A DNA stretch of 25,000 nt. Source: a virus. The stretch covers positions 1 through 25,000 of IMG/VR virus record IMGVR_UViG_3300031227_004784, one strand, 5' to 3'. Shown here piece by piece: positions 10-14,600 of this stretch. Within the stretch, counting starts at the first letter, position 1. Each line of letters starts with the position of its first letter. Both the position numbers and the translations under genes were made by a program. The notes beneath the pieces were generated by a model. It was given only the letters and a program-made list of their open reading frames with translations, did not search any database and was not told where the DNA came from.

Positions 10-171
10 TCATTTTCCACGCTCCAGGTTATCGTGCCATTCTTTCGTTCCCTCATTATAGTATTTCGGCTTACAATCAAGAATGTATTTCGCTATGGCT
101 AGGGCAAGCTCCTTCGGTTGCTTACGATTATATACAATTATCTTCTCCAACCGGTCTGATAGTTTACTCAT
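10..171 (-). CDS. small hypothetical protein, 53 aa
   Basis: A short complete reading frame beginning MSKLSDRLEKII. Its ATG overlaps the TGA of the upstream CCA-adding enzyme gene in an ATGA arrangement, which suggests translational coupling and is the main reason to accept it. The protein is charged and probably helical, with Trp and Tyr near the C-terminus (KEWHDNLERGK). I recognise no family. It is the last minus-strand gene before the window edge; the operon probably continues to the left. Confidence 0.6.
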   Translation of the reverse strand: MSKLSDRLEKIIVYNRKQPKELALAIAKYILDCKPKYYNEGTKEWHDNLERGK

Positions 172-1553
172 ACCTTCTTCTCTTTCAGCTCACCCATAGA
201 ATCTTTGTTCCAGCTTTCGATTATTTGCTTTACTAAGATTGTCAGGTCATCATAGTTGTTCTTCTCTGGGAACTCAAGCACATAGTCAAGACAGGTGCGT
301 AGTAGTTTGCCCATGATGGGCCCTCGCTCTACATTCATGTCAAACAAGACATCACCATCAATCGCCAAGTCAGTGATTTTCAGTGCGTGTTTCTGCTCCT
401 CAATCTTATCAACCCGCTTCTTGAGTTCTGTATCCCATGTGAACGGAGAAAATCCCTTCAAGCCATTCCCTACTCTATCAGCATACTTCAAGAGCATCAA
501 ATCTGGAATACGGTGCTTACCCACACGTCTCAGAAGCCTTCTAATGGCGCTGTCTTTCATTTCTTGTCTATAGCCAAACATATGGCCACGTATCATGGTC
601 GTTATATATTCTACCTCGCTATTGCTGAAACGATATTCCTTGAGAATAGTATCAGCCATATCAGCACCAATAAACTCGTGATTATGAAATGATGCATCTG
701 GCTTACCATAATTCTTACATGACGCGGGCTTACCAACGTCATGCAGAAGCGCCGCCATGCGTAGCAAAGGTTTCGTATGGGGTACGGCATCTACTGAACG
801 GAAGATATGCTCCAGGACATCGTACTTGTGATACTTATTTTGAGCATACCCCTTGCATACTGACAAGTCGGGGAATATCTCAAAGAGCAACCCACAAGCA
901 GAGAGCGAGAATAATGCTCCCAAGACATTCTTTCCTGATAGTAGCTTGAGCATTTCCTCCTTAATGCGTTCCTTAGATACGTTGCGTATGCCTTCTTTAT
1001 GCTCACGCACTGCCTTATACGTGCTATTCGCTATGTTGAATCCCAGTATCGAAGAAAAGCGGAACGCGCGCAACATACGCAGTGCATCTTCCTTAAAGCG
1101 CACATGAGCAGAATTGACAGTCTGTATTACCCCACGTCTTATGGCGTCTACCCCATTGAACGGGTCTACGTAACGCTCCCCATCAAACGCTATGGCATTG
1201 ATGGTGAAGTCTCTACGTGATAGGTCTTGCACTATGTCTTTGACAAACATGACTTTATCTGGGTGTCGCCCATCTGTATAGTTTCCGTCAATCCTAAAAG
1301 TCGCGATGTCTACGCCCGATACTTTCGCTACCCCAAATTGCTTACCAACAACCTTAGCTCCTGGAAAGAGTTTCACCACATCGTCAAGCATGAGATTGGT
1401 GGCGACATCATAGTCATGCGGTACTTTCATCAGTATGGCGTCTCTCACACAACCACCAACGATATATGCCTCACCTTTAGCATTAAGTATGTTCTCTAGG
1501 ATTGTTTTAACGTGTATAGGCAATGCACTACTATCAAAATCTATATTGGACAT
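168..1553 (-). CDS. cca: tRNA nucleotidyltransferase (CCA-adding enzyme) with HD domain
   Basis: Predicted class II tRNA nucleotidyltransferase, which adds or repairs the 3' CCA of tRNAs using CTP and ATP; 461 residues. The nucleotidyltransferase core shows GGCVRD at 33-38, the metal-binding pair D47 and D49 in HDYDVAT, RRDFTINA at 113-120 and an EDxxRxxR segment from E155. A C-terminal HD phosphohydrolase-type domain follows, with H249 and HD at 271-272 in LLHDVGKP. The start is supported by AGGGAG upstream. It overlaps the end of the helicase gene by 13 bases, so it belongs to the replication operon. Some members of this superfamily are poly(A) polymerases or add only part of CCA, and the sequence alone does not separate these. 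A CCA enzyme is unusual cargo for a phage. Confidence 0.93.
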   Translation of the reverse strand: MSNIDFDSSALPIHVKTILENILNAKGEAYIVGGCVRDAILMKVPHDYDVATNLMLDDVVKLFPGAKVVGKQFGVAKVSGVDIATFRIDGNYTDGRHPDKVMFVKDIVQDLSRRDFTINAIAFDGERYVDPFNGVDAIRRGVIQTVNSAHVRFKEDALRMLRAFRFSSILGFNIANSTYKAVREHKEGIRNVSKERIKEEMLKLLSGKNVLGALFSLSACGLLFEIFPDLSVCKGYAQNKYHKYDVLEHIFRSVDAVPHTKPLLRMAALLHDVGKPASCKNYGKPDASFHNHEFIGADMADTILKEYRFSNSEVEYITTMIRGHMFGYRQEMKDSAIRRLLRRVGKHRIPDLMLLKYADRVGNGLKGFSPFTWDTELKKRVDKIEEQKHALKITDLAIDGDVLFDMNVERGPIMGKLLRTCLDYVLEFPEKNNYDDLTILVKQIIESWNKDSMGELKEKKV

Positions 1554-2407
1554 GCTGTATTCTCCCTGTTTTCAAATGCAAAGAAGTGTGGTTGAAAGTT
1601 AAACGTTACCATGCCGAGCGTACCGTGACGTTGTTTAGCAACGTGTACCTCAAACTCACATCTATCTAGGTAACTTGGTTCGTTGTGGCTTATCCAGTAC
1701 AAGAGGGCGATGGTATCACTATGTTCTTCAAGTGAGCCACTTCCCTTCAGTTCATCCATAGTCGGGCGTCTATTCTGCCGTCTTTCGTCCATGCGTCTTA
1801 TTTGCGACAATACGACCATTGCGCAGTTATACTTCTTTGCCAACTCTTTCAGCTTTCTGAAATACTCAGTTATGGCGTGGTACTGACTGCTGTAACCACC
1901 ATACGATACTAACTGTATATAGTCTAATATCACTACGTCTGGTCGTGGGTTCATATGAGCAACCAGCTTCTCTACGTCCTCAAACGTGTACCCACAGTTA
2001 TCTACAATGAGCATCGGTAGGTGCTCTATCAGCTTCTCAAAGGTTTCGATGCGGGACTTGGTATAGTCCGACATGCGCCCTTCTCGTAGCTCTGCATTGT
2101 GTATCTTACACGTCAGACAGAATAACCGTTCAACAATTTGTTCCTTTGACATTTCTAATGAGATAAATAATACGTTATGCCCGTTGTCTGCAAGGTTAAA
2201 TGCAATCTGCCCAGCAAGTGCTGTCTTGCCTTCCGATGGCCTTGCTCCGATTGTCATGAGTTCTTTTTTGTGCAACCCCCAGATTATCTTGTCTAACCCC
2301 TCTAGTCCAGTTGGTAGTTTTGGGCTAGAAGTCCTGTCTTTTAAGTCTTGTTTCACGCCATCGAAGATTTCCGATAGGTGTACTATCTCTATTTTGTTTC
2401 GGTGCAT
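1541..2407 (-). CDS. DnaB-type replicative helicase, RecA-like domain only
   Basis: Predicted hexameric replicative DNA helicase of the DnaB C-terminal family. Counting from the preferred start (288 residues), Walker A is GARPSEGKTA at 54-63, Walker B is the LDYIQ segment around 161-165, SQIRR at 201-205 matches the DnaB motif after it, and the KQRHG segment near 258-262 fits the arginine-finger region. DnaB is usually about 450 residues; the N-terminal collar domain is missing here. The frame is open upstream to 2476, but the ATG at 2407 has a GGGGG ribosome binding site and the upstream one has none, so 2407 was chosen. The neighbouring winged-helix initiator and OB-fold protein suggest a self-contained phage replication-initiation set. 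Confidence 0.92.
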   Translation of the reverse strand: MHRNKIEIVHLSEIFDGVKQDLKDRTSSPKLPTGLEGLDKIIWGLHKKELMTIGARPSEGKTALAGQIAFNLADNGHNVLFISLEMSKEQIVERLFCLTCKIHNAELREGRMSDYTKSRIETFEKLIEHLPMLIVDNCGYTFEDVEKLVAHMNPRPDVVILDYIQLVSYGGYSSQYHAITEYFRKLKELAKKYNCAMVVLSQIRRMDERRQNRRPTMDELKGSGSLEEHSDTIALLYWISHNEPSYLDRCEFEVHVAKQRHGTLGMVTFNFQPHFFAFENRENTACPI

Positions 2408-2642
2408 TATATCGCCCCCGTTGTTTCCAGTGCAAACTCTCTGACTGCATATGAGGTGATAGTCTATGCGCCTCATCTTGATACATTGTCAGAGTGTCCC
2501 TATATATTTCATTCGCCAGCTTAGAGATTGCTTTATCTCGCCAATAATAAGAGGTGAGATACGCACAAAGCTCTATTGTTTGTGTGGTTATTACTTTGCT
2601 ACGTTCAAGCCTGTTCTTGTCTACGCTTCTCATTGGCTTCAT
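2325..2642 (-). CDS. hypothetical protein between initiator and helicase, 105 aa
   Basis: An open frame filling the roughly 200 bases between the initiator stop and the helicase start. It overlaps the initiator end by 38 bases and the helicase start by 83 bases. The central part (SKVITTQTIELCAYLTSYYWRD and following, about residues 15-70) has protein-like composition with predicted helix; the C-terminal third lies over the helicase start and is arginine-rich. There is no convincing ribosome binding site (weak AAGAAG). By position it could be a helicase loader or the detached helicase N-terminal domain, but no motif shows this. I do not recognise a family. Confidence 0.4.
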   Translation of the reverse strand: MKPMRSVDKNRLERSKVITTQTIELCAYLTSYYWRDKAISKLANEIYRDTLTMYQDEAHRLSPHMQSESLHWKQRGRYNAPKQNRDSTPIGNLRWRETRLKRQDF

Positions 2643-3417
2643 CTATCTTCTTCAACCTATCCAAAGTAAACTGAGGCAACTCACCATGTTTCCGGTCTTC
2701 TGGGCGCTCATAAGTAGATAAGGGCTCAGGCTGAAGACGTACAACATACTGGTTTATCTTATCACTGGATGCAAAGATGCCTATAGTGTGTCCATGGTCT
2801 GTTATCCAGTAGTCTGTATCACGCAAGTAGCGGTCTATAGCCACGATAATGTCAGCGTGGGTCAGCCCACTATCGATTAAACGCTTCATACACGCACCGT
2901 CCTTCGCCCAGTTAGGCACATACTGCTTGCCGAACGTCTTCAGGTACTCAGCATAGAAGTATTTCACCAAGTTGGGCGTGGGTGCCTTGCTCTCACGTTT
3001 TTCTACTACGGTAGTAGTAGTCCTTCTACCATTCCTTCTGCTGTAGTTGTGCTCCATACTTTTAACCAGTTCTGCATCTTTAACATTTTGGTAAGTATCG
3101 TATTTGCATACGGTTACAAGAGTGAATCTATTAACTACTTTTGTAGTCACCACATCTAACTTGACTAGTTCCAATAGCTTACGACGGAACATACTGGAAC
3201 TCATGCCTAACTCTTTTGATGCAACATGTTGTCCCGTAAAGAATTGCCCACGTTTCAACATTATTTTGTTACATTTATGATCCTTAAAAGATGCTTTAAG
3301 TATGCACCAGATAAGGACTACGAACAATTTATGGTCGCGAATTATTGGGTTTTCTGACAATTTGCGCCATATGATAACATACCCACTGTTTACGTTATCA
3401 TTGTCTTCGGTGTACAT
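2605..3417 (-). CDS. winged-helix phage replication initiator (DnaD/O-like)
   Basis: Predicted replisome organiser that binds the phage origin and recruits helicase. The N-terminal half has the arrangement common to phage DnaD-like initiators: GYVIIWRKLSENP near the start, a hydrophobic helix with WCILKA, then IMLKRGQFFTGQHVASKELG, a turn leading into the recognition helix, and a wing ending TLVTVCKYDTYQ. The C-terminal half (TPNLVKYFYAEYLKTFG onward) is a separate helical domain. The preferred ATG overlaps the stop of the preceding OB-fold gene as TAATG; a GTG two codons upstream is possible. A short run of GTA/ACT triplet repeats encodes a Thr-rich linker around residue 140. It sits two steps upstream of the helicase. 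Confidence 0.8.
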   Translation of the reverse strand: MYTEDNDNVNSGYVIIWRKLSENPIIRDHKLFVVLIWCILKASFKDHKCNKIMLKRGQFFTGQHVASKELGMSSSMFRRKLLELVKLDVVTTKVVNRFTLVTVCKYDTYQNVKDAELVKSMEHNYSRRNGRRTTTTVVEKRESKAPTPNLVKYFYAEYLKTFGKQYVPNWAKDGACMKRLIDSGLTHADIIVAIDRYLRDTDYWITDHGHTIGIFASSDKINQYVVRLQPEPLSTYERPEDRKHGELPQFTLDRLKKIDEANEKRRQEQA

Positions 3418-3986
3418 TACCACTTTCTCTCTTTCTGAATCATCCTACTGATGATGAACGCGCGAACATCCTCAGATGCGAAGCCCTTCTCAGCTCCCAA
3501 CTTGACAATTTCACTTATAGCAGGATTGTTGAATACCACTTGTACTTCATCAACAACCTCAGTAATCATCATGTCAAATGTTTTAGGGGGCGCTACTGTT
3601 TCCTTTGATTTTGGAGTGGTGGTAGATGCGGGTGTAGTGGTTGATGGTAGTGTTGCTGGTTCCGTCTTAGCGTCCCTAGCCATCGTAATAACACACTCTT
3701 TACCAGTAGCTTCAAGACTGAGCTGTAATACCCCGTCCTTGTCAGTATAGCTGGAAAGTTTACACCCCGTCATTACTATGGGTTTTCCAGTGTCCTGGTT
3801 GGTTACAAAATCAGTCGCTATACTGGAGAATAGTTTTTCATCACCATCCACAAGTAATATGTTCTGTCTTTGGAATGTTCCATGCTGTCCACTGATAGTG
3901 CGTACTGGTAAAGCGCGTAGCACCTGCGCCTCTACTGAGAATCCCTGAGTACCCACGTCCAATTTTTTAATATCCGCAATCTTCAT
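3417..3986 (-). CDS. OB-fold single-stranded DNA-binding-like protein
   Basis: Residues 1-100 read as an OB-fold: alternating beta strands with VLRALPVRTISGQHGTF and QNILLVDGDEKLF, then KDGVLQLSLEA. A Pro/Thr-rich linker (about residues 113-138) joins it to a small helical C-terminal domain. This is the usual design of a phage SSB-like or annealing-accessory protein, and the place directly before the replication initiator agrees. The ATG at 3986 follows GGAGGA at eight bases; a GTG at 3992 is only two bases from the Shine-Dalgarno and was rejected. The C-terminus lacks the acidic DDxPF-type tail of bacterial SSB, so the role is inferred from fold and context. Confidence 0.65.
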   Translation of the reverse strand: MKIADIKKLDVGTQGFSVEAQVLRALPVRTISGQHGTFQRQNILLVDGDEKLFSSIATDFVTNQDTGKPIVMTGCKLSSYTDKDGVLQLSLEATGKECVITMARDAKTEPATLPSTTTPASTTTPKSKETVAPPKTFDMMITEVVDEVQVVFNNPAISEIVKLGAEKGFASEDVRAFIISRMIQKERKW

Positions 3987-4287
3987 CTGCACTGTCCTCC
4001 TCTAAATCTTTAACGAGCGTAGTTATTTCCTCATATACCCCGGTGAACAAATTAAAGAGTATCACTTCATAATGTCCTGGTACTGTCTCTACAAACCGTA
4101 CACCTCCAGCTTGAACCAGCATTTCAAATGCTTCTAACGATGCCTCAACTCCTAAGTTTCTCAATTCGTCTAACTCTTGCACCATCGAAGGTAATGTGTT
4201 GAAAAAATAATCTCTTACAGCTTTACGGAACTCCGGTGAACACTCACAAAAAGGTCTGTCTAGTGGAATTTGTTCACTTACACGCAT
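3967..4287 (-). CDS. hypothetical protein, 106 aa
   Basis: Unrecognised acidic protein. It starts after AGGAGC and its 3' end overlaps the start of the OB-fold gene, including that gene's ribosome binding site, so the two are probably coupled. The N-terminal half is likely helical (FRKAVRDYFFNTLPSMVQELDEL); the C-terminal half has a short beta-like stretch (VRFVETVPGHYEVILFNL) and an acidic tail ending DEDCGY. Context suggests a replication or recombination accessory, without direct evidence. Confidence 0.7.
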   Translation of the reverse strand: MRVSEQIPLDRPFCECSPEFRKAVRDYFFNTLPSMVQELDELRNLGVEASLEAFEMLVQAGGVRFVETVPGHYEVILFNLFTGVYEEITTLVKDLEEDSADEDCGY

Positions 4288-4343
4288 ATTGAATAGCTCC
4301 TATAATGTGGCGAACATGACAGCAGTTGCGTACTCCACCTCCT

Positions 4344-4739
4344 CTATGCAACGTCGCCCATTTGGGTTAGATGTTTCTTCTCAAATGACAATAATGACTG
4401 CATTGCCGATGCCTGTCTATCAGTTGTTTCCAGTAATCCATCGACAAGATTCCTCCAATATCGGTAGTCAGAAACCTGTGAATCCAATTTAAACTTTCTG
4501 TCTAGATCCGTTTCACCCTTATCCTTTATCGGTAAATGCTCAGCGAGGGCTCTATCCAAGAACCACTCAAGCTTGGCCAGCATTGTTGATAATGTTGGTC
4601 TATGGGTTAGTATATCCAGTAAGTGTTGCTTGATTATCTCTGCTTGGTCTTTGGGAATTGATTCCTTGAGTAACGCTTGTACCTCGTCTAAATACTCAGT
4701 CCTGCTTTCTATGTAACTCCTCAGATCCTCTATCGGCAT
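4344..4739 (-). CDS. hypothetical helical protein, 131 aa
   Basis: Unrecognised protein, almost entirely predicted helix, starting MPIEDLRSYIESRTEYL. A good ribosome binding site (AAGGAG, seven bases before the ATG) supports the start, which lies inside the 3' end of the nuclease gene. The conserved-looking aromatic segment DYRYWRNLVDGLLE lies around residues 91-104. Adjacent to the Cas4-like nuclease; a nuclease partner role would be a guess. Confidence 0.7.
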   Translation of the reverse strand: MPIEDLRSYIESRTEYLDEVQALLKESIPKDQAEIIKQHLLDILTHRPTLSTMLAKLEWFLDRALAEHLPIKDKGETDLDRKFKLDSQVSDYRYWRNLVDGLLETTDRQASAMQSLLSFEKKHLTQMGDVA

Positions 4740-5628
4740 TGCTATTCTCCTTTTCTACAAGTTCTTCATAGGCTTTACAGAAGTCCTTGGCATGACAGTA
4801 TTTATCGCATTTCCAAGTTTGCATATCGGGAGCACATTTGGGGGGCATGAGATTATTCGTGAAGGAGTTATACATAATCTCAGCACGCGGAAGGATGAAG
4901 TCCATCACTTGTTCATCACTCCAAATCTCTATCTCTGGGGTGTTATAGAATACACGATAGTTCCCATAGCCACCAGCATTGTAGTCAGTAGGTTCGATAA
5001 AATACTCAAAGCCTTGTTTCGACTTATTGGGTGCTCGTTTCAATGATTGGACAATCTCATTAAGTTTGCCTGTCTCAGCAAAGGACATCATTGTAAGGTA
5101 CATAATACGCAATCTCTTAACCGTGTATGGTGAGAGCCAGCGATAGATGTTTACCTGTGGTTTATGCTCCTCTTTCGCACCGTCTCTGACAACATAAATA
5201 AGACCTTTGTCGCCTATCGTCTTTAAATCCCATAGGGTTTGTGTGAGGTTATCATAACCATCAAGTTTTCCCGTAATTGCAATTTTTTCGTTATTCTTGA
5301 GGGTAATAGTTTTGGAAAATGTCTGCTCTGAAACCCACCCGGGGAGGTGAGGTCGCTCGAAGATGCTGTGTATTAAGGTGCCTCGCCATGAATAATACAA
5401 GGATTGGATAGGGGCATAGTAGGGGTACTTACGCAGGAGATAGGTTTCTCGCAGACAGCCAAGCAGAGTTGTTGCGGTGATTATGTTACCTTTATGGTAG
5501 TCCTTTCTTGAAGTTGCTATGATTGTATCGAGGAAAAATCTTGGGTAGCAGTCGCATTTCTTGTGGTTCAGTGCATCTTCAAACTTTACTTCCCCATGCC
5601 TGGGGCATTTGATACCTATTAGGGGCAT
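4696..5628 (-). CDS. Cas4/RecB-like PD-(D/E)XK nuclease with Fe-S cysteines
   Basis: Predicted iron-sulfur exonuclease of the Cas4/AddB-like PD-(D/E)XK superfamily, acting on DNA ends during phage replication or recombination. Counting from the ATG (310 residues): H87 in GTLIHSIF, D123 in GKLDGYD, D134 and K136 in WDLKT, and Q158 in QVNIYRW give the expected catalytic order. Cysteines suited to a 4Fe-4S cluster are C58 (GCLRE) and C274, C278 and C284 near the C-terminus, with C265 as an extra candidate. An N-terminal CPRHG...CDC segment (C8, C25, C27) may bind zinc. The ATG at 5628 follows AGAAGGA; a TTG two codons upstream is less likely. It is the first gene after the promoter at 5668-5696. 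Confidence 0.85.
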   Translation of the reverse strand: MPLIGIKCPRHGEVKFEDALNHKKCDCYPRFFLDTIIATSRKDYHKGNIITATTLLGCLRETYLLRKYPYYAPIQSLYYSWRGTLIHSIFERPHLPGWVSEQTFSKTITLKNNEKIAITGKLDGYDNLTQTLWDLKTIGDKGLIYVVRDGAKEEHKPQVNIYRWLSPYTVKRLRIMYLTMMSFAETGKLNEIVQSLKRAPNKSKQGFEYFIEPTDYNAGGYGNYRVFYNTPEIEIWSDEQVMDFILPRAEIMYNSFTNNLMPPKCAPDMQTWKCDKYCHAKDFCKAYEELVEKENSNADRGSEELHRKQD

Positions 5629-5667
5629 TGGCAATCCTTCTGTGATGTGTGTTTTTATATATGATAT

Positions 5668-5696
5668 AGTATATCACATAAATGATGATTTGTCAA
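5668..5696 (-). promoter_or_regulatory. sigma-70/sigma-A promoter for the nuclease-replication operon
   Basis: On the minus strand, TTGACA (5696-5691) and TATACT (5673-5668) are separated by exactly 17 bases, with TGA just before the -10 box (extended -10). Transcription should start near 5661, giving a leader of about 33 bases to the nuclease ATG at 5628. Confidence 0.85.
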
Positions 5697-5704
5697 GCCG
5701 AATT

Positions 5705-5899
5705 TCAAGATTTGTCAGATTGGGTTTTATGATAGTATTTGTTGGCCGCCTTTCTGTGTGCGTCCTGTCGCTTTGCGTCACGTTCCTCAATGCTCTTTAA
5801 GTACTCAGGGCACTCTGAACATGCCCCGCAAATCTTCCTATAGTGCTCACACTGCACCTCCTTGCAGGTCTGCGGTAGTGATATTCTCTTTTTAAACAT
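5705..5899 (-). CDS. small cysteine-rich protein, probable zinc binding, 64 aa
   Basis: Starts MFKKRISLPQ after a good AAGGAG ribosome binding site. Four or five cysteines are clustered (TCKEVQCEHYRKICGACSEC, residues 11-30), suggesting a zinc or metal site, followed by a basic, helical C-terminal half. It is the last gene of the ubiquitin-like cassette transcript before the next promoter. Family not recognised. Confidence 0.75.
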   Translation of the reverse strand: MFKKRISLPQTCKEVQCEHYRKICGACSECPEYLKSIEERDAKRQDAHRKAANKYYHKTQSDKS

Positions 5900-5921
5900 T
5901 GTATTTCTCCTTTTTAGTTAG

Positions 5922-5944
5922 TGGGCAGTTTTAAGAGGTGCCCA
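5922..5944 (-). other. intergenic RNA hairpin
   Basis: TGGGCA and TGCCCA form a perfect six-base stem with an 11-base loop between the 93-aa and 64-aa genes. No U-run follows, so it is not a standard terminator; it could shield or process the transcript. Confidence 0.4.
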
Positions 5945-5961
5945 GCTCCCGCCGAGGGAAA

Positions 5962-6243
5962 TTAGAATAGTCTTTCGGCGTAGAGCTTCTGACCTCTGGT
6001 GACGAGACGGATGTTCTTCATCTTCCTTAGTTTCATAAGCTCCGCTAAAGAAGAATACAGGCTGGCCATCTGTACGTGAGGGCACTTCACTTGTACCGGC
6101 GCGTTGACTGGCATGGAAGTGAGTTCTCCGACAATCTTGTCGTACTTACTCACGCCCTTGCGACGTACCCACGAACTATTGGGTATCTTTGTAACCGGCT
6201 CCATGGTGATGCTCTCCGCATCAACATTATTGAATCTTTTCAT
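5962..6243 (-). CDS. hypothetical protein, 93 aa
   Basis: Preceded by an excellent AAGGAGGTGA ribosome binding site. The C-terminal half is basic and looks like a small helical/winged region (MASLYSSLAELMKLRKMKNIRLVT, residues about 59-82), so nucleic-acid binding is possible. The middle contains VGELTSMPVNAPVQVKCPH. Not recognised. It is downstream of the E1-like gene in the same direction and may be an accessory to that operon or simply a small phage gene. Confidence 0.75.
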   Translation of the reverse strand: MKRFNNVDAESITMEPVTKIPNSSWVRRKGVSKYDKIVGELTSMPVNAPVQVKCPHVQMASLYSSLAELMKLRKMKNIRLVTRGQKLYAERLF

Positions 6244-6257
6244 TTATTTCACCTCCT

Positions 6258-6518
6258 TTACGTTGGTATGCTTACTATTGGTGTAATTGTAGGTAGTCCT
6301 ATTGGTTCTATCCAATCTACATTGGAATTATACTCCCCCTCAGCTCCTCGTTGCGTAAAAGTCCATCCACATTTGAAACCAAATGTATCGTCTGGTGCTG
6401 AACCCGACTTAAAGTTTTGACATAAGAACCAAACCCCTTTTTCACGTTGCAATCGGGCTATAGGGATAACACGATTTCCTATAGAACATTTGACCCAAGC
6501 ACCTATTGTAAGTTGCAT
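6258..6518 (-). CDS. hypothetical beta-rich protein, 86 aa, downstream of E1
   Basis: Begins nine bases after the E1-like gene stop, with GGGGGAGG only two bases before the ATG. The sequence is rich in Trp, Phe, Gly and beta-forming residues (GAWVKCSIGNRVIPIARLQ and KCGWTFTQ), suggesting a small barrel or sandwich domain, and ends in a Pro/Ile-rich tail. No family recognised. The tight spacing makes it a candidate fifth member of the ubiquitin-like operon, for example a target or adaptor, but this is inference only. Confidence 0.75.
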   Translation of the reverse strand: MQLTIGAWVKCSIGNRVIPIARLQREKGVWFLCQNFKSGSAPDDTFGFKCGWTFTQRGAEGEYNSNVDWIEPIGLPTITPIVSIPT

Positions 6519-6527
6519 AACCTCCCC

Positions 6528-7241
6528 CTATTGTCTTGTAAAGAACACATCGCTGGCGACATCATAGACTATTTCCGACGCGATAGGCGCTTTATTTTCT
6601 TGTTTTCCCGTGATTTGCTCCAATAACGCTTTCTTTAATTGCGATACGATTAGCCCGGCTATGATAGATGCACAATACATGGTTGCTTTAGCGGTGCATG
6701 GTGCTACCATCACATCTTCTGGGGGGCATAATGTTTTCTCGTACAGTTCAGCCTGCTCTTGAGAGAGAGGGTCGATAGTATAGATACGCATGACCTCAGC
6801 ACCCATCCTTGCGTCAATATACAGCGGTACGTGTGACCTATGATGCGAGAGCGACCGCCATATCTGATGTCTGGTCTCCATACTATCGACCGAGCAAATA
6901 TATACCCCATCAATATCTTTTTTATCCCATATTGTCGGATGAGTCTCTATCTCAACACCGTCGAACTCTTTTAAGATTTCACTAATCGCACTCACCTTTG
7001 GTTTCCCAATGTCAAGCATGCGGTAGATTGAGTTAGGAAGATTGTGCAATTCAACGGTATCATTATCGTAGACACGGATATTATGAAACCCGGTCTTCGC
7101 TAAGAACAATGCTGTCGTGCCTCCAACAGCACCAACCCCAATCAGACTGATTGGTGTGTTCAATATCTCTGCTGGTATAATGTCCCGCTGTCGTACATAC
7201 TTCGGGTCAGTCTCCTGCGTTAATGTGTTTTCTAATAACAT
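6528..7241 (-). CDS. E1-like/ThiF-family ubiquitin-like activating enzyme
   Basis: Predicted adenylating enzyme that activates the C-terminal glycine of the neighbouring Ubl with ATP; 237 residues. The Rossmann nucleotide loop is GVGAVGG at 35-41, followed by DND at 59-61 and VELHNLPNS at 63-71, the GKPK lysines K80 and K82, and the catalytic-type aspartate D119 in SVDSMETR. Candidate catalytic cysteines are C172, C182 (APCTAK) and C190. There are no paired CxxC zinc sites. The usual Arg-Gln after NL is replaced by Asn70-Ser71. A strong AAGGAG supports the start. It lies 12 bases after the JAB gene, as the fourth component of a Ubl-E2-JAB-E1 operon. Confidence 0.95.
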   Translation of the reverse strand: MLLENTLTQETDPKYVRQRDIIPAEILNTPISLIGVGAVGGTTALFLAKTGFHNIRVYDNDTVELHNLPNSIYRMLDIGKPKVSAISEILKEFDGVEIETHPTIWDKKDIDGVYICSVDSMETRHQIWRSLSHHRSHVPLYIDARMGAEVMRIYTIDPLSQEQAELYEKTLCPPEDVMVAPCTAKATMYCASIIAGLIVSQLKKALLEQITGKQENKAPIASEIVYDVASDVFFTRQ

Positions 7242-7253
7242 GGTCTGCTCCTT

Positions 7254-8327
7254 TTATGTGATGTTCTTTGGTTCAATTGTGATGCCATGCACTATACACT
7301 CTACGGCAAAACCATACTCCTCTATCTCAAGGCATTTTTCTTCTTGCCATGGTCGGTATTCTTGCATCTGGGCGTCCCATCTCCATTGTATTTTATATTC
7401 GTCATACACCGTTAGCCCTACGAAGCTTACTGGCTGTTGATTATAGTATTCTTCTTGCCAGTCAGTGATGGTTGATGCTTCTTGCTTTGTAATGGGTTTC
7501 TTTGGTACGACTTCTACTTCTTCATACTCATAAGGATACCCATATTTGCCGTACGTATTGTACGGCGTTTGTGGTTGTGCCATTCTTGCTACTGGATATG
7601 TTTTTCTTGCACACTTCTCCGATATTTCCTTGCGGCACTCGTCTTCAAGAGCGGTGAGTTCTTTATCGTCAGATATCACCTCAACGGGTATGTGATTGCA
7701 TGTTAGACGTGCAGGTGAATAGACATCAAGCCTACACAATAAGTCCCTATCGTGATTAGCCACGATTGAGAGTAGCCATGTATCGTTATTGTATTCGTCA
7801 CAGGTTGTATCATCTGTGGTTGACCAATGCGTGCCCATTGATGCATGAGAGTGCCACCATAGTTTCATATTGCTTGGGTTTTTGCTTTTGTCACCTTCAT
7901 CATATTGCTTGATGAGACCCATGGTGAGTTTTGCGAGGTCGTCATTGTCCAGCTTTGTTGAGCCAGCCGTATTTTCTTGCTTTACGATAAATATATCGGT
8001 AATACGGATGATATCACCTTCGTACTCGACTAAGCCAAGCCCACTGATTTCCTCTCTTGTATTTTTTATATACATAAAGAGTTTGTGGTAAATGTGACTC
8101 GACATTACCACACGACAGCTTATCTTGACTTCTGGTTCATTCCCAGTATCGACACGGTAGTCAAATCCTGGAAAGCTTATTGCATCTTTGGAACATAACG
8201 GTGACGATTGAAAGGGCATACCAAATGCGGGTTTGACTTCCGGGGCAAGTCCTACTTGCTGTACAGCACCATGTACACTACCCCGATTCTTTTTTCTTCT
8301 TTTTCTTGCTCCACTAAACTGTGCCAT
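7254..8327 (-). CDS. JAB/JAMM metalloprotease (predicted deubiquitinase-like)
   Basis: Predicted zinc isopeptidase that processes or removes the Ubl. In the 357-residue product, E93 (EISG) is the general base and the JAMM motif is complete: H159, H161, S169 and D172, that is HxH, seven residues, S, two residues, D. Residues 1-20 are highly basic (GARKRRKKNRG). After the JAB domain a Tyr-rich linker (about 255-270) leads to an unrecognised 80-residue beta-rich tail. The frame is open upstream to 8792, but AAGGAG six bases before the ATG at 8327, and the E2 gene lying over the extension, fix the start. It is 28 bases after the E2 gene. Confidence 0.95.
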   Translation of the reverse strand: MAQFSGARKRRKKNRGSVHGAVQQVGLAPEVKPAFGMPFQSSPLCSKDAISFPGFDYRVDTGNEPEVKISCRVVMSSHIYHKLFMYIKNTREEISGLGLVEYEGDIIRITDIFIVKQENTAGSTKLDNDDLAKLTMGLIKQYDEGDKSKNPSNMKLWWHSHASMGTHWSTTDDTTCDEYNNDTWLLSIVANHDRDLLCRLDVYSPARLTCNHIPVEVISDDKELTALEDECRKEISEKCARKTYPVARMAQPQTPYNTYGKYGYPYEYEEVEVVPKKPITKQEASTITDWQEEYYNQQPVSFVGLTVYDEYKIQWRWDAQMQEYRPWQEEKCLEIEEYGFAVECIVHGITIEPKNIT

Positions 8328-8355
8328 TGTATTCTCCTTTTGTTTTTGTGTTGTA

Positions 8356-10017
8356 TTATCTATCGCGGTGGGAGCACTCGCCATCCTCGTCCAGATATTC
8401 GCACTCATCACACGACACATCTTCTCCAAGTACATTATTCGGCGGGTTTTCGGCTGGACATCTGTCGCAACCACAGTTATCCAGTGTTTCTGAACATACA
8501 TGGCATGTTGCAGCCTCACTCCCCGCAACTGTCCTCGTAACTGTTCTACAAGAGCATAGTTCCCTAATCCTATGACATCTTCTACATATCGATAGACCCT
8601 GCTCTGTAAGATGCGGCCAGCCATCTTGTAAGCTGATGTATGGTGCGTGATGCGCTCCCCTGCCATGCCCATCGTTGTAGTGACATAGGAATTGGTACAT
8701 TGTGTCAAACACCAAACCATATTGTTGCTGTCGCATAAACGAGAGTACCGACTGGTCGAGATTACCCCAGCATGGATTGCCAGTGCTGACATGCGGGTGG
8801 TCGTAGTCGTTGTGTGACCCGACAGCTCCTTTTAGATTGATGCATTTGATACGCCCATCTAAATATAACTTTACCTCGAAGTGACCAATGTCATATTTAC
8901 CAAAGAGTAATATTGGCGATGTGACACCGATAATGCATTGTTCGCTGAACCTAAACTGTGTATATTTATTCGCTTTCTCCATGTTTTGTAGTAAGGTGTA
9001 ATCTTTTTCGAGTTGGTCTCTAAGCTCCTTGTTATCCATTCTGTTTTCTGTGGCATTAAGGAACTTTCTTTCTTTTTCTAATTCTTGTCCCTGCTTCAAT
9101 AGCCCTCTCATGTGGGAATCAACATCACGCCTAAGTTTATCTATCGCCTTATGAGTATTCTCTATGGTTACTGAAAACATATTGTCTAGGAATTCTAGAT
9201 ATTCCCTGTGCTTTCGTTCCTCCCGAAGTTGCTTTATGAATGTTCGTGCCTCTTCTTTCATTTTATCAAAATCGCTATTGTAAAATGATAGGATATAATC
9301 AAAATACAAGGCGATATACTTGCTTGGTACATCAGAGTTTGAAACACCACTCCATAACAGCATTAATGCTCCAAGTTGTTTGGACATATATGCTATGGCT
9401 AAGTTTTTGCTATCTTTGATAGTATATCCCATGCCTTCTGTACTTTTGGGCGGACATTGCATCCGCACCATAACTCCTGTTTCTGTTTCAAGGCTATTAA
9501 AGTTTATGGATTCAGATCCGATATCCATCCTTCTGCTTGTTGATAGTGACCCACCTGACTCCGTGTAGTTTGGTATCAGATGTATTGTATCGTCTCTTAA
9601 ATCACTCTCCGTTATCGCACTTATATCTTCTATTCCGAAGAAGGTTAGATTTTTCTGTAACCTAAAGGCATGTTTTGCGAGTACCGCAAGTGTGCTGTCA
9701 GTTGGCATTGAGAGCCGAGCGCGAGAGCATATTGTAATATACAATGTTGTCTCGCCATCGGTAACTGCAATTCGCAATTCCCCTAGATGCTCTGGACGGG
9801 GGTTGACAATTTGCACCTGCATTGTTTTCGGTGGTTCAATGGGTGTATCTTTATCAGCATTAGCCGATACTTCTATTGCTAATGGTATTTGTAGTATCAT
9901 ACCCTCGCATACACTCGCGCGGGCTAGTTCTCTTTCATCGCCTGGTCGTGGTGCTCTTTGAATAGGTGCTTCTGGGTCCCACGCCCCGCTTGCACTTGTT
10001 GTTGACATTGTTGCCAT
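8356..10017 (-). CDS. large E2-like conjugating protein with Ubl-like domain, coiled coil and zinc knuckles
   Basis: A 553-residue multidomain protein. Residues about 65-156 look like a beta-grasp domain ending DDTIHLIPNYTESGG, closely resembling the tail of the free Ubl (GDIIHVTPNIEGG). A charged coiled coil spans about 250-350. Residues 378-465 resemble an E2/UBC fold: FEVKLYLDGRI strands, HPHV at 407-410, predicted catalytic C416 in NPCWGN, a helix, and APY near 458-460. The tail has three tandem Cys motifs: C478, C481, C488, C490; C505, C508, C515, C517 (plus C520); and C536, C539, C548, H550. AAGGAGG seven bases before the ATG at 10017 fixes the start. Known bacterial E2-like proteins with an HPH...C motif are much shorter. 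The E2 assignment is by motif and neighbours. Confidence 0.85.
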   Translation of the reverse strand: MATMSTTSASGAWDPEAPIQRAPRPGDERELARASVCEGMILQIPLAIEVSANADKDTPIEPPKTMQVQIVNPRPEHLGELRIAVTDGETTLYITICSRARLSMPTDSTLAVLAKHAFRLQKNLTFFGIEDISAITESDLRDDTIHLIPNYTESGGSLSTSRRMDIGSESINFNSLETETGVMVRMQCPPKSTEGMGYTIKDSKNLAIAYMSKQLGALMLLWSGVSNSDVPSKYIALYFDYILSFYNSDFDKMKEEARTFIKQLREERKHREYLEFLDNMFSVTIENTHKAIDKLRRDVDSHMRGLLKQGQELEKERKFLNATENRMDNKELRDQLEKDYTLLQNMEKANKYTQFRFSEQCIIGVTSPILLFGKYDIGHFEVKLYLDGRIKCINLKGAVGSHNDYDHPHVSTGNPCWGNLDQSVLSFMRQQQYGLVFDTMYQFLCHYNDGHGRGAHHAPYISLQDGWPHLTEQGLSICRRCHRIRELCSCRTVTRTVAGSEAATCHVCSETLDNCGCDRCPAENPPNNVLGEDVSCDECEYLDEDGECSHRDR

Positions 10018-10029
10018 AACCATTCCTCC

Positions 10030-10173
10030 TTAGTAAATTACGATGGTACACATATCTTTTTTGATTTGGTGTGCCTGTTTCCATTCTTTAGGCGACCACC
10101 ATTTTTTGGGTATCACTATTACGCTGATATCCGCATTGTACTGCGCCAGAACATCTGCTTTACATATTAACAT
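10030..10173 (-). CDS. small hypothetical protein between Ubl and E2, 47 aa
   Basis: Starts MLICKADVLAQYNADISVIV after a weak GAGGGA ribosome binding site and ends 12 bases before the E2 ATG. It contains KKWWSPKEWKQAH and strands at both ends. A longer frame reaching 10284 would run through the Ubl gene end and the hairpin at 10196-10228 and is not believed. Its place inside the conjugation operon suggests translation, but no function can be read. Confidence 0.5.
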   Translation of the reverse strand: MLICKADVLAQYNADISVIVIPKKWWSPKEWKQAHQIKKDMCTIVIY

Positions 10174-10195
10174 AATGGTTCCCTCGTTTAAGGTG

Positions 10196-10228
10196 ACGCA
10201 GAGACGGAGTGCGAGTCCGCCCCTGCGT
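10196..10228 (-). promoter_or_regulatory. very stable intergenic RNA hairpin after the Ubl gene
   Basis: In the minus-strand transcript, ACGCAGGGGCGGA and TCCGTCTCTGCGT pair over 13 positions (11 Watson-Crick, 2 G-U) around a 7-base loop. It begins nine bases after the Ubl TAA. No U-run follows, so it is more likely a transcript-processing, 3'-protecting or partial-attenuation element that raises Ubl output over E2, JAB and E1. Confidence 0.75.
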
Positions 10229-10237
10229 AGTTGGTTG

Positions 10238-10447
10238 TTAGCAGCCACCCTCGATGTTCGGGGTAACGTGGATGATGTCGCCATCTTCCACTATTGTGTC
10301 GCTTGTTGCTGGCTCCGTGTTCAGACGAATCTCTTTCTCACGACCCGTGTTGACGCCCGCTTCGTTAAGGCACTGGCCTACTGTTGCATCATTGCCAACT
10401 TCGATTTCCTTGAATACTCCGCCCTGCTCTGCTATTCTGATTCTCAT
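10238..10447 (-). CDS. ubiquitin-like/ThiS-MoaD-like beta-grasp protein ending Gly-Gly-Cys
   Basis: Predicted ubiquitin-like modifier, 69 residues. The pattern fits a beta-grasp fold: strand 1 (MRIRIAE), strand 2 (VFKEIEVG), helix (TVGQCLNEAGV, about 22-32), strand EIRLN, then VEDGDIIHVTPNIEGGC. The DGD-I-x-V-x-P spacing and terminal GG resemble ThiS/MoaD family members and prokaryotic ubiquitin-like proteins. G67-G68 is followed by a single Cys69, so a JAMM protease may need to expose the diglycine before E1 adenylation. A strong AAAGGAG precedes the ATG. It is the first gene after a 290-base leader and promoter and heads the E2-JAB-E1 operon. A sulfur-carrier role is the main alternative. 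Confidence 0.88.
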   Translation of the reverse strand: MRIRIAEQGGVFKEIEVGNDATVGQCLNEAGVNTGREKEIRLNTEPATSDTIVEDGDIIHVTPNIEGGC

Positions 10448-13987: not shown

Positions 13988-14158
13988 ATGAACAGGTACA
14001 GAGTAATTTTAGTACGAGAGGTTGACCTTGTGTGGCAAGAGGTTGATGCGAGGAGCAAGAAAGAGGCGAAGGAAAAGGCGTATGGCCTGTTTAATAAAAT
14101 TGATTCTAATGAATCAGACAGGTTAGAGGTTGAATTGTTAGAGGAAGAAGATGAATAA
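13988..14158 (+). CDS. small acidic protein, 56 aa
   Basis: Starts MNRYRVILVREVDLVWQEV after AAGGAGGTG. A strand-strand-helix pattern (RSKKEAKEKAYGLF) followed by an acidic tail LLEEEDE, similar in outline to many small phage proteins with a beta-beta-alpha domain. Not recognised. Ends 22 bases before the hydrolase start. Confidence 0.72.
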   Translation: MNRYRVILVREVDLVWQEVDARSKKEAKEKAYGLFNKIDSNESDRLEVELLEEEDE

Positions 14159-14180
14159 CCTTAATAGAAAGGGGTGTACT

Positions 14181-14600
14181 ATGTTTAGGGTATGTTTCGT
14201 AATATGTACAGTAATGATGTTTCTAGCCTCTTCCGCTCAAGCGGTTGAGCCACCTAACAACCTATATAAAGGCTTAATAGCCGAAGCTGTAGGTGAGGGC
14301 TATGAGGGTATGTTCGCGGTTGCTTGCTGTGTGCGTAATAGACTTGAAGAAGGCATGAACACGGGTCTATGCGGGCTCAAGCGAAAGGATATAGACAGTT
14401 TCGTAAAAAGACAAGGTAAGAGATATACGGTTATAGCACAACAAATAATCGTTGAGGTGTTCGAGAACAACGCTCCTGATGTCACAAACGGGGCGCTATA
14501 CTTTGAGAATATTGAGGCATTCGGGGTGCCGTATTTTGTGATACCTATGAATTTGTCACAGTCGGCGAAGATAGGGCTACACACCTTCTATAAGAAATAA
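14181..14600 (+). CDS. secreted SleB/CwlJ-like cell wall hydrolase
   Basis: Predicted peptidoglycan hydrolase of the SleB/Hydrolase_2 family (lytic transglycosylase-like), 139 residues. A signal peptide is visible: positive start, hydrophobic CFVICTVMMFLA, and an SAQA site near residue 21, so the mature protein is about 118 residues, near the size of a bare catalytic domain. Catalytic glutamate candidate is E35 in AEAVGEGYEG, followed by AVACCVRNR, and the typical end DVTNGALYF...GLHTFYK. AAAGGGG before the ATG at 14181 was preferred over an in-frame ATG at 14151. Known members open spore cortex or cell wall. It is in an early-type operon far from the late genes, so a role other than final lysis is possible. 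Confidence 0.88.
   Translation: MFRVCFVICTVMMFLASSAQAVEPPNNLYKGLIAEAVGEGYEGMFAVACCVRNRLEEGMNTGLCGLKRKDIDSFVKRQGKRYTVIAQQIIVEVFENNAPDVTNGALYFENIEAFGVPYFVIPMNLSQSAKIGLHTFYKK

Follow-up and report, generated by a model that had tools for sequence, protein, structure and literature searches.

Can a phage carry a complete ubiquitin-style conjugation cascade of its own? In bacteria, conjugation of ubiquitin-like proteins (Ubls) has so far been met chiefly in host defence systems and on plasmids. The question is raised by four genes in IMG/VR record IMGVR_UViG_3300031227_004784, a viral contig whose positions 1-25,000 make up the window, the whole 25-kb stretch of DNA analysed here. As an original prediction made from the bare sequence had stated, the genes are consecutive on one strand; they run head to tail along the minus strand and encode a Ubl, an E2-like conjugating enzyme, a JAB/JAMM protease and a ThiF-type E1 activating enzyme, each preceded by a Shine-Dalgarno sequence. 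From the computed folds, the conservation of active sites and of the operon, and the covariation of the Ubl tail with JAB, we consider it highly probable that this tailed phage encodes a complete, reversible Ubl protein-conjugation cascade. The four genes are as follows.

10447-10238, minus strand: Ubl, 69 aa, a single beta-grasp domain with C-terminus ...IEGGC
10023-8356, minus strand: E2-like conjugating enzyme, 555 aa counted from the first ATG
8327-7254, minus strand: JAB/JAMM protease, 357 aa, with E93, H159, H161, S169 and D172
7241-6528, minus strand: ThiF-type E1 activating enzyme, 237 aa, with D119 and C182

The E1 contains one ThiF domain (residues 26-213; Pfam ThiF, 8e-20), and a profile built from 11 sequences matched Uba1 (2.9e-24) and ThiF (4.9e-23) among the PDB sequences. 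Ten residues are invariant in these 11 sequences: G35, G37, D59, D61, N67, K82, D119, R124, R145 and C182. They include the GxG..G nucleotide loop and the Mg-binding aspartate D119, both of which the original prediction had picked out, and C182 is the putative catalytic cysteine. The E1-E2 models of PADLOC also match the window E1 (1.6e-11). E1 genes are further present in an archaeal-type virus contig and related loci (L002, 9902-11635; L089, 7451-8483; L146), with a JAB nearby in L002 and L089; none of the three showed a recognisable E2 or Ubl of the window type.

The JAB protease matches Pfam weakly as a single sequence (0.012); its family profile, compared with solved structures, gives as best match the proteasomal deubiquitinase RPN11 (7e-14). 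The complete E, HxH, S, D set claimed for it proved to be invariant, with E93, H159, H161, S169 and D172 unchanged in 20 sequences. This numbering of H159 and H161, which agrees with the earlier one, follows from the ATG at 8327, which has a Shine-Dalgarno sequence. The start at 8792, which gives the longest listed open reading frame (512 aa), was rejected on account of its 437-nt overlap with the E2 gene. Group I introns that reach the Rfam gathering score break the JAB gene at or beside the HxH codons in at least three contigs (L044, 6106-6318; L059, 5426-5672; L070, 5492-5751). Similar insertions occur at the HxH codons in L025 and L069, that of L069 carrying a LAGLIDADG-like endonuclease (5561-6571). 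Homing elements prefer conserved codons.

In the E2-like protein the UBC core spans approximately residues 332-471 and contains H409-P410-H411 followed by the active cysteine C418, which becomes C416, as originally numbered, when counted from the second in-frame ATG. The eukaryotic HPN...C is thus replaced by HPH...G..C. In the AlphaFold2 model, residues ~330-450 mostly have a predicted local distance difference test score (pLDDT) of ~90 and run in the order helix, strands, HPH, Cys, two helices. Beyond the core, model quality is low except for a coiled coil or long helix (residues 252-328), the N-terminal part being uncertain and the C-terminal tail Cys-rich. The top rows of a VIA-align comparison of the model are mostly E2s (UbcH10, UbcH7, Ubc13, Ubc12), with UbcH10 aligned over 118 residues at 3.5 Å (Z 7.6). 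A profile trimmed to the core likewise returned nearly all E2s as its best rows among the PDB sequences (best E-value 0.011); the full-length profile, which returned coiled-coil artefacts only, was set aside. H409, P410, C418 and G420 are invariant across 11 sequences, and HP[HY]...C is retained in relatives that were anchored on E1 and so picked independently of the motif (HPHG...C in L067). The E2 of crAss-like phages has its own version, YxHSH...CxG, invariant in 16 aligned members; around the active site its core can be aligned to that of the window type (hhalign P 2.7e-4, probability only 42%). Each of these lines is modest by itself; combined with the HPH...G..C motif and the E1/Ubl/JAB context, they make it very likely that the protein is an E2. 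The coiled coil, the Cys-rich tail and the placing of HPH before the cysteine bear out the statement that its architecture differs from those described. There are 13 cysteines after the active site, and a C-terminal RING finger is not claimed, given the low model confidence there and the absence of a Pfam RING match. Tandem E2 paralogues were also seen: L098 has four consecutive E2-like genes ahead of its JAB and E1 (607-5916, minus-strand coordinates), and L097 has two, as if several E2s were served by one E1 and JAB.

For the 69-aa protein said to be a beta-grasp domain ending in GGC, AlphaFold2 gives that fold at a pLDDT of 87, and Foldseek matches of the model include SAMP1, SUMO, MoaD and ubiquitin. 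The two proteins that the original prediction held less certain thus both have confident models, as a beta-grasp Ubl and an E2 core. G67 of the Ubl is unchanged in 10 relatives. The best matches of the Ubl in Pfam (3e-4) and NCBIfam (1e-4) are both to ThiS, and the E1 is ThiF-sized and matches ThiF, which favours a sulfur-transfer role: the Ubl would carry sulfur as ThiS and MoaD do, the E1 would act as a ThiF-like adenylyltransferase, and the remaining genes would belong to a thiolation pathway for tRNA or a cofactor. In Thermus, TtuB-like proteins serve both sulfur transfer and conjugation. However, ThiS and MoaD end in bare GG and have no E2 or JAB partner, whereas this Ubl ends in GGC and shares its operon with a JAB and with a UBC-fold protein bearing the invariant H-P...C. 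Moreover, thi, moa, rhodanese and cysteine-desulfurase genes are absent from the best-represented neighbour families.

The Ubl tails bear on the same choice. At loci with a JAB gene, the Ubl usually continues for 1 to ~190 residues beyond its last conserved glycine. In loci of the window type the extra residues mostly number one to four (GGC, GGE, GGR, GGK, GGRS, KGA), and in those of the crAss type 1 to ~190 residues follow ...K-S-G. Four records have no JAB match, namely the whole genome of PhiXhv-12, the giant-phage contigs L067 and L077 (238 kb and 178 kb) and L136, a 1.8-Mb metagenome-assembled genome of Methylomirabilota; the contigs and the assembled genome may not be complete. Each of the four has a Ubl with a bare SGG or RGG terminus. 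The three JAB-less giant phages cluster in the E1 tree and L136 stands apart, indicating two loss events, and the association of a bare-glycine Ubl with JAB absence has a Fisher p of 0.0009 by locus and 0.02 by loss event, with kinship ignored. L111, considered as a JAB-less counter-example, was dropped when a JAB was found elsewhere in its record. Such covariation is to be expected if JAB is the maturation protease of the Ubl, and it speaks against a plain sulfur carrier, a role that we consider highly unlikely. A giant-phage variant is seen in L077 (3981-9398), where a 1315-aa E2-like protein and an E1 accompany a 247-aa Ubl that resembles two beta-grasp domains and ends in SGG.

How far the conjugation operon extends beyond the window was assessed from two independent anchors. 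A tblastn search of 50,697 phage records with the E1 reached Flavobacterium phages (FpV), crAss-like Steigviridae (DAC15, cr85_1) and giant Xanthomonas and Erwinia phages; the E2 and the JAB, searched directly against the same records, gave zero matches. The E1 relatives, often annotated as a thiamine biosynthesis protein, have as neighbours Ubl, E2 and JAB genes (without JAB in PhiXhv-12), annotated as hypothetical or 'metalloprotease'. Among viral contigs, a scan with the E1 profile found 111 relatives, of which 80 were kept, and a DNA scan for the E2 motif found 43 contigs; the E2 is encoded in 40 of them, and a JAB as well in 35 of these 40. The same four-gene kit is present in ~100 other virus contigs, crAss-like gut phages included, and the neighbourhood search that had been proposed as a check recovered the same operon from either anchor. 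By hidden Markov model annotation, the exact order Ubl-E2-JAB-E1 on one strand is found in 26 of 53 window-type E2 loci, a set to which a few contigs contribute two loci each, and most of the others are cut by the locus ends. All four genes are present at 62 of the 66 crAss-type loci with enough upstream sequence. The operon is not a chance assembly, because the same order recurs in dozens of unrelated viral contigs and the catalytic residues are invariant at ~20-40% identity.

All four genes are under purifying selection, with ratios of nonsynonymous to synonymous substitution rates (dN/dS) below 1 (0.04-0.61) in four close pairs of crAss-type loci. The ratio is lowest for E1 in three of the pairs, and in every pair E2 has the highest dN of the four proteins. 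Across loci the operon neighbours helicase, primase, DnaB and DNA methyltransferase genes, in a tally made without a formal control. Relatives also occur in apparently chromosomal contigs (L136, L145, L141, L139/L140; Methylomirabilota, Saccharibacteria, Kaiserbacteria, Myxococcales), with the orders E2-E1-Ubl without JAB in Methylomirabilota, E2-Ubl-JAB-E1 in Saccharibacteria and E2-E1 beside GroES/GroEL in Kaiserbacteria. Among these, the operons of L136 and L145 have no visible phage genes around them. The family therefore crosses between phages and bacteria; the E1 tree is a quick one with many open forks.

Several points weigh against a phage conjugation cascade. The window E2 alone has zero Pfam matches, and with the full-length E2 model Foldseek found no E2 below 1e-3 in the PDB and likewise nothing at E<=0.001 in viral libraries. 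The VIA-align Z values are all below 8, which makes them supportive and not decisive. Some JAB-bearing loci (L099, L108, L130) have a Ubl ending in bare glycine, that of the JAB-bearing L034 ends in IGG after an earlier KITGA, and the independent losses of JAB number only two. The loci from the E2-motif scan carry the motif by construction, leaving their neighbours as the independent evidence; the reverse holds for the E1-anchored loci, where E1 is present by construction and the neighbours are again what counts. Lastly, the chromosomal relatives in a few bacteria show that the family does not belong to phages alone. With these points taken into account, the conjugation reading is well supported computationally, and assignment to the Bil system is not.

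The original prediction had described the genes as standing in Bil-like order. Bil (BilABCD) consists of four genes, Ubl, E2, a JAB deubiquitinase and E1, in which the deubiquitinase frees the reactive glycine at the C-terminus of the Ubl (PMC11354881). Its defining features are two consecutive beta-grasp domains in BilA, inactive and active adenylation domains plus a Cys domain of ~80 aa in BilD, and, in BilB, a CEHH motif of C138, E144, H146 and H151, that is C, +6 E, +8 H and +13 H (PMC11354881). The gene order Ubl-E2-JAB-E1 is indeed common to both systems, and it is found in PRTRC plasmids as well. The proteins differ on all three counts: the phage Ubl has one beta-grasp domain in 69 aa in place of the tandem BilA, the 237-aa E1 has a single ThiF domain and no Cys domain in place of the two-lobed BilD, and after C418 the CEHH positions are occupied by Q424, V426 and R431, with HPH preceding the cysteine. 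The phage E2 has in addition its long coiled coil and Cys-rich tail, and the operon is phage-carried. Bil membership was accordingly rejected, gene order alone being shared.

Bil is nevertheless the model for one possible purpose, the exclusion of competitors, in which the cascade would tag structural proteins of superinfecting phages as is reported of Bil for the host. Bil is reported to act on phage virions and has the same gene order, defence is a natural reading of the chromosomal operons in L136 and L145, and the rapid change of E2 points the same way. Against this, Bil's defining protein features are absent, and the operon is conserved in many phage lineages and sited among replication genes; we hold this purpose to be unlikely.

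Plasmid PRTRC systems, which resemble operon type 6d of Iyer 2006, are mobile elements that also have separate genes for Ubl (C), E2 (B), JAB (A) and ThiF (E1). Their relative order is the same, but one extra gene stands between Ubl and E2. The phage E1 scores 27.7 bits with the PRTRC_ThiF model, whose cut-off is 144.75, and the models of PRTRC proteins A, B and C gave no match to the window JAB, E2 and Ubl at E<=1. In L134 the PRTRC_B protein is without the HPH motif, and profile comparison gives no match to the phage family. On these scores, filing the operon under PRTRC was rejected. The Ub/E1/E2/Rpn11/RING operon of Caldiarchaeum is likewise a compact cluster with an RPN11-like JAB and a Ub (structure matches 6fnn, 6fj7), but it is cellular and includes a RING E3 (PMC11354881), which is not claimed for the phage operon. 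Type II CBASS combines E1 and E2 chemistry with a JAB in Cap2 and Cap3. Its Cap2, however, is an E2-E1 fusion that conjugates CD-NTase and not a beta-grasp Ubl (PMC12355090), whereas the phage operon has separate genes and a dedicated Ubl.

JAB, E1 and E2 are carried as a set by phages, and host CBASS and Bil use the same chemistry. A counter-defence purpose would build on this, with the cascade or its JAB modifying or stripping components of Ubl-based or other host immunity. Stripping would need only a stand-alone JAB, yet the phage keeps a dedicated Ubl and conjugation enzymes, and no link to host defence was seen. We regard counter-defence as rather unlikely.

The surroundings of the operon bear on the remaining alternatives. 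It was described as phage-borne, with replication genes on one side and head genes on the other, and this is what was found. On the left it is flanked by genes for DnaB, a CCA-adding enzyme, a Cas4-like exonuclease and a DnaD-like loader; on the right, at a distance of ~8 kb and on the opposite, plus strand, are terminase, Mu-type portal, protease and scaffold genes. The CCA-adding-type tRNA nucleotidyltransferase (168-1553, minus strand) is phage-encoded, has an HD domain and adjoins DnaB. A cell wall hydrolase (Hydrolase_2; 14151-14600, plus strand) lies just within the rightward half and may be a lysis or entry gene. A strong promoter-like site of the extended -10 type, recognised purely by its consensus match, stands ~300 nt upstream of the Ubl gene. 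It is one of six near-identical extended -10 sites in the window (TTGACA-17-TATAAT/TATACT), two of which form a divergent pair near 13.2-13.4 kb. The leader between this site and the Ubl gene (10742-10440, minus strand, ~300 nt) folds somewhat better than its shuffles (z -1.9) and matches zero Rfam families at the gathering score. The further features are these.

10771-10743, minus strand: inferred operon promoter, TTGACA-17-TATACT with TG extension, matching the consensus at 11/12
10173-10030, minus strand: possible 47-aa open reading frame between Ubl and E2, doubtful, seen in sequence only, beginning MLICKADVLAQYNADISV
5696, 10771 and 13163, minus strand: promoter-like sites (first base of the -35 hexamer)
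13374, 15450 and 16188, plus strand: promoter-like sites (first base of the -35 hexamer)

The only phage mentions that we found in the literature concern TAPI. The TAPI-TAPK pair of lambda and T1 is likewise phage-encoded and comprises a Ubl, whose glycine region is followed by a further domain, and a JAB protease (PMC1779556). It belongs to the tail-assembly module and has no E1 or E2, whereas the operon described here has both and lies on the replication side. The known phage pair thus offers a precedent for virion maturation (Iyer 2006, PMC1779556), in which capsid or cargo proteins of the phage itself would receive the Ubl, or the Ubl would be packaged. Since the operon keeps company with replication genes, runs on the strand opposite the head genes and has its own promoter-like site, such a use is distinctly unlikely. 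Exclusion, counter-defence and virion modification are rivals in purpose only, each compatible with a conjugation mechanism.

For the mechanism itself we infer a scheme that covers enzymatic activity, thioester sites, expression time, targets and purpose. JAB would cut the Ubl after its conserved glycines (in the window, ...EGG|C), and the exposed glycine would be adenylated with ATP by the ThiF-type E1, probably forming a thioester on the invariant C182. The next acceptor of the Ubl would be C418 in the UBC fold of the E2. This enzyme may both choose targets and attach the Ubl to them by means of its long coiled coil, its variable N-terminal part and the Cys-rich tail at its C-terminus, and JAB could take the Ubl off again. 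Expression is probably early, and the targets would be host or phage proteins of takeover or replication in the infected cell, because the operon has a sigma70-type promoter-like site resembling others in the contig and sits among replication genes. An early role directed at the host or at replication fits this replication-gene setting and the spread among phages at least as well as the exclusion of competitors.

A broader proposal is that these operons form a large, ancient and undescribed branch of Ubl conjugation, at home mainly in tailed phages: the crAss-like phages of the gut, those of Flavobacterium, giant phages and many from the environment. In them the branch would serve as a conserved early module for remodelling infected cells through reversible tagging, its E2 often having a Cys-rich, possibly E3-like tail for target recognition. 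We judge the chances of this fuller picture to be even. Our literature search, in which preprints and most subscription journals fell outside the scope and a prior description is therefore possible, did not turn up any account of an E1/E2/Ubl/JAB set in a phage. Bacteroides phage DAC15, other crAss-like phages and Flavobacterium phage FpV4 are cultured carriers and thus testable isolates. If the reading is true, viruses of bacteria themselves use ubiquitin-style tagging, and many unrelated phages have kept the full cascade. These data suggest that such tagging is a widespread viral tool, and the phage operon bears on where the E1/E2/JAB toolkit diversified.

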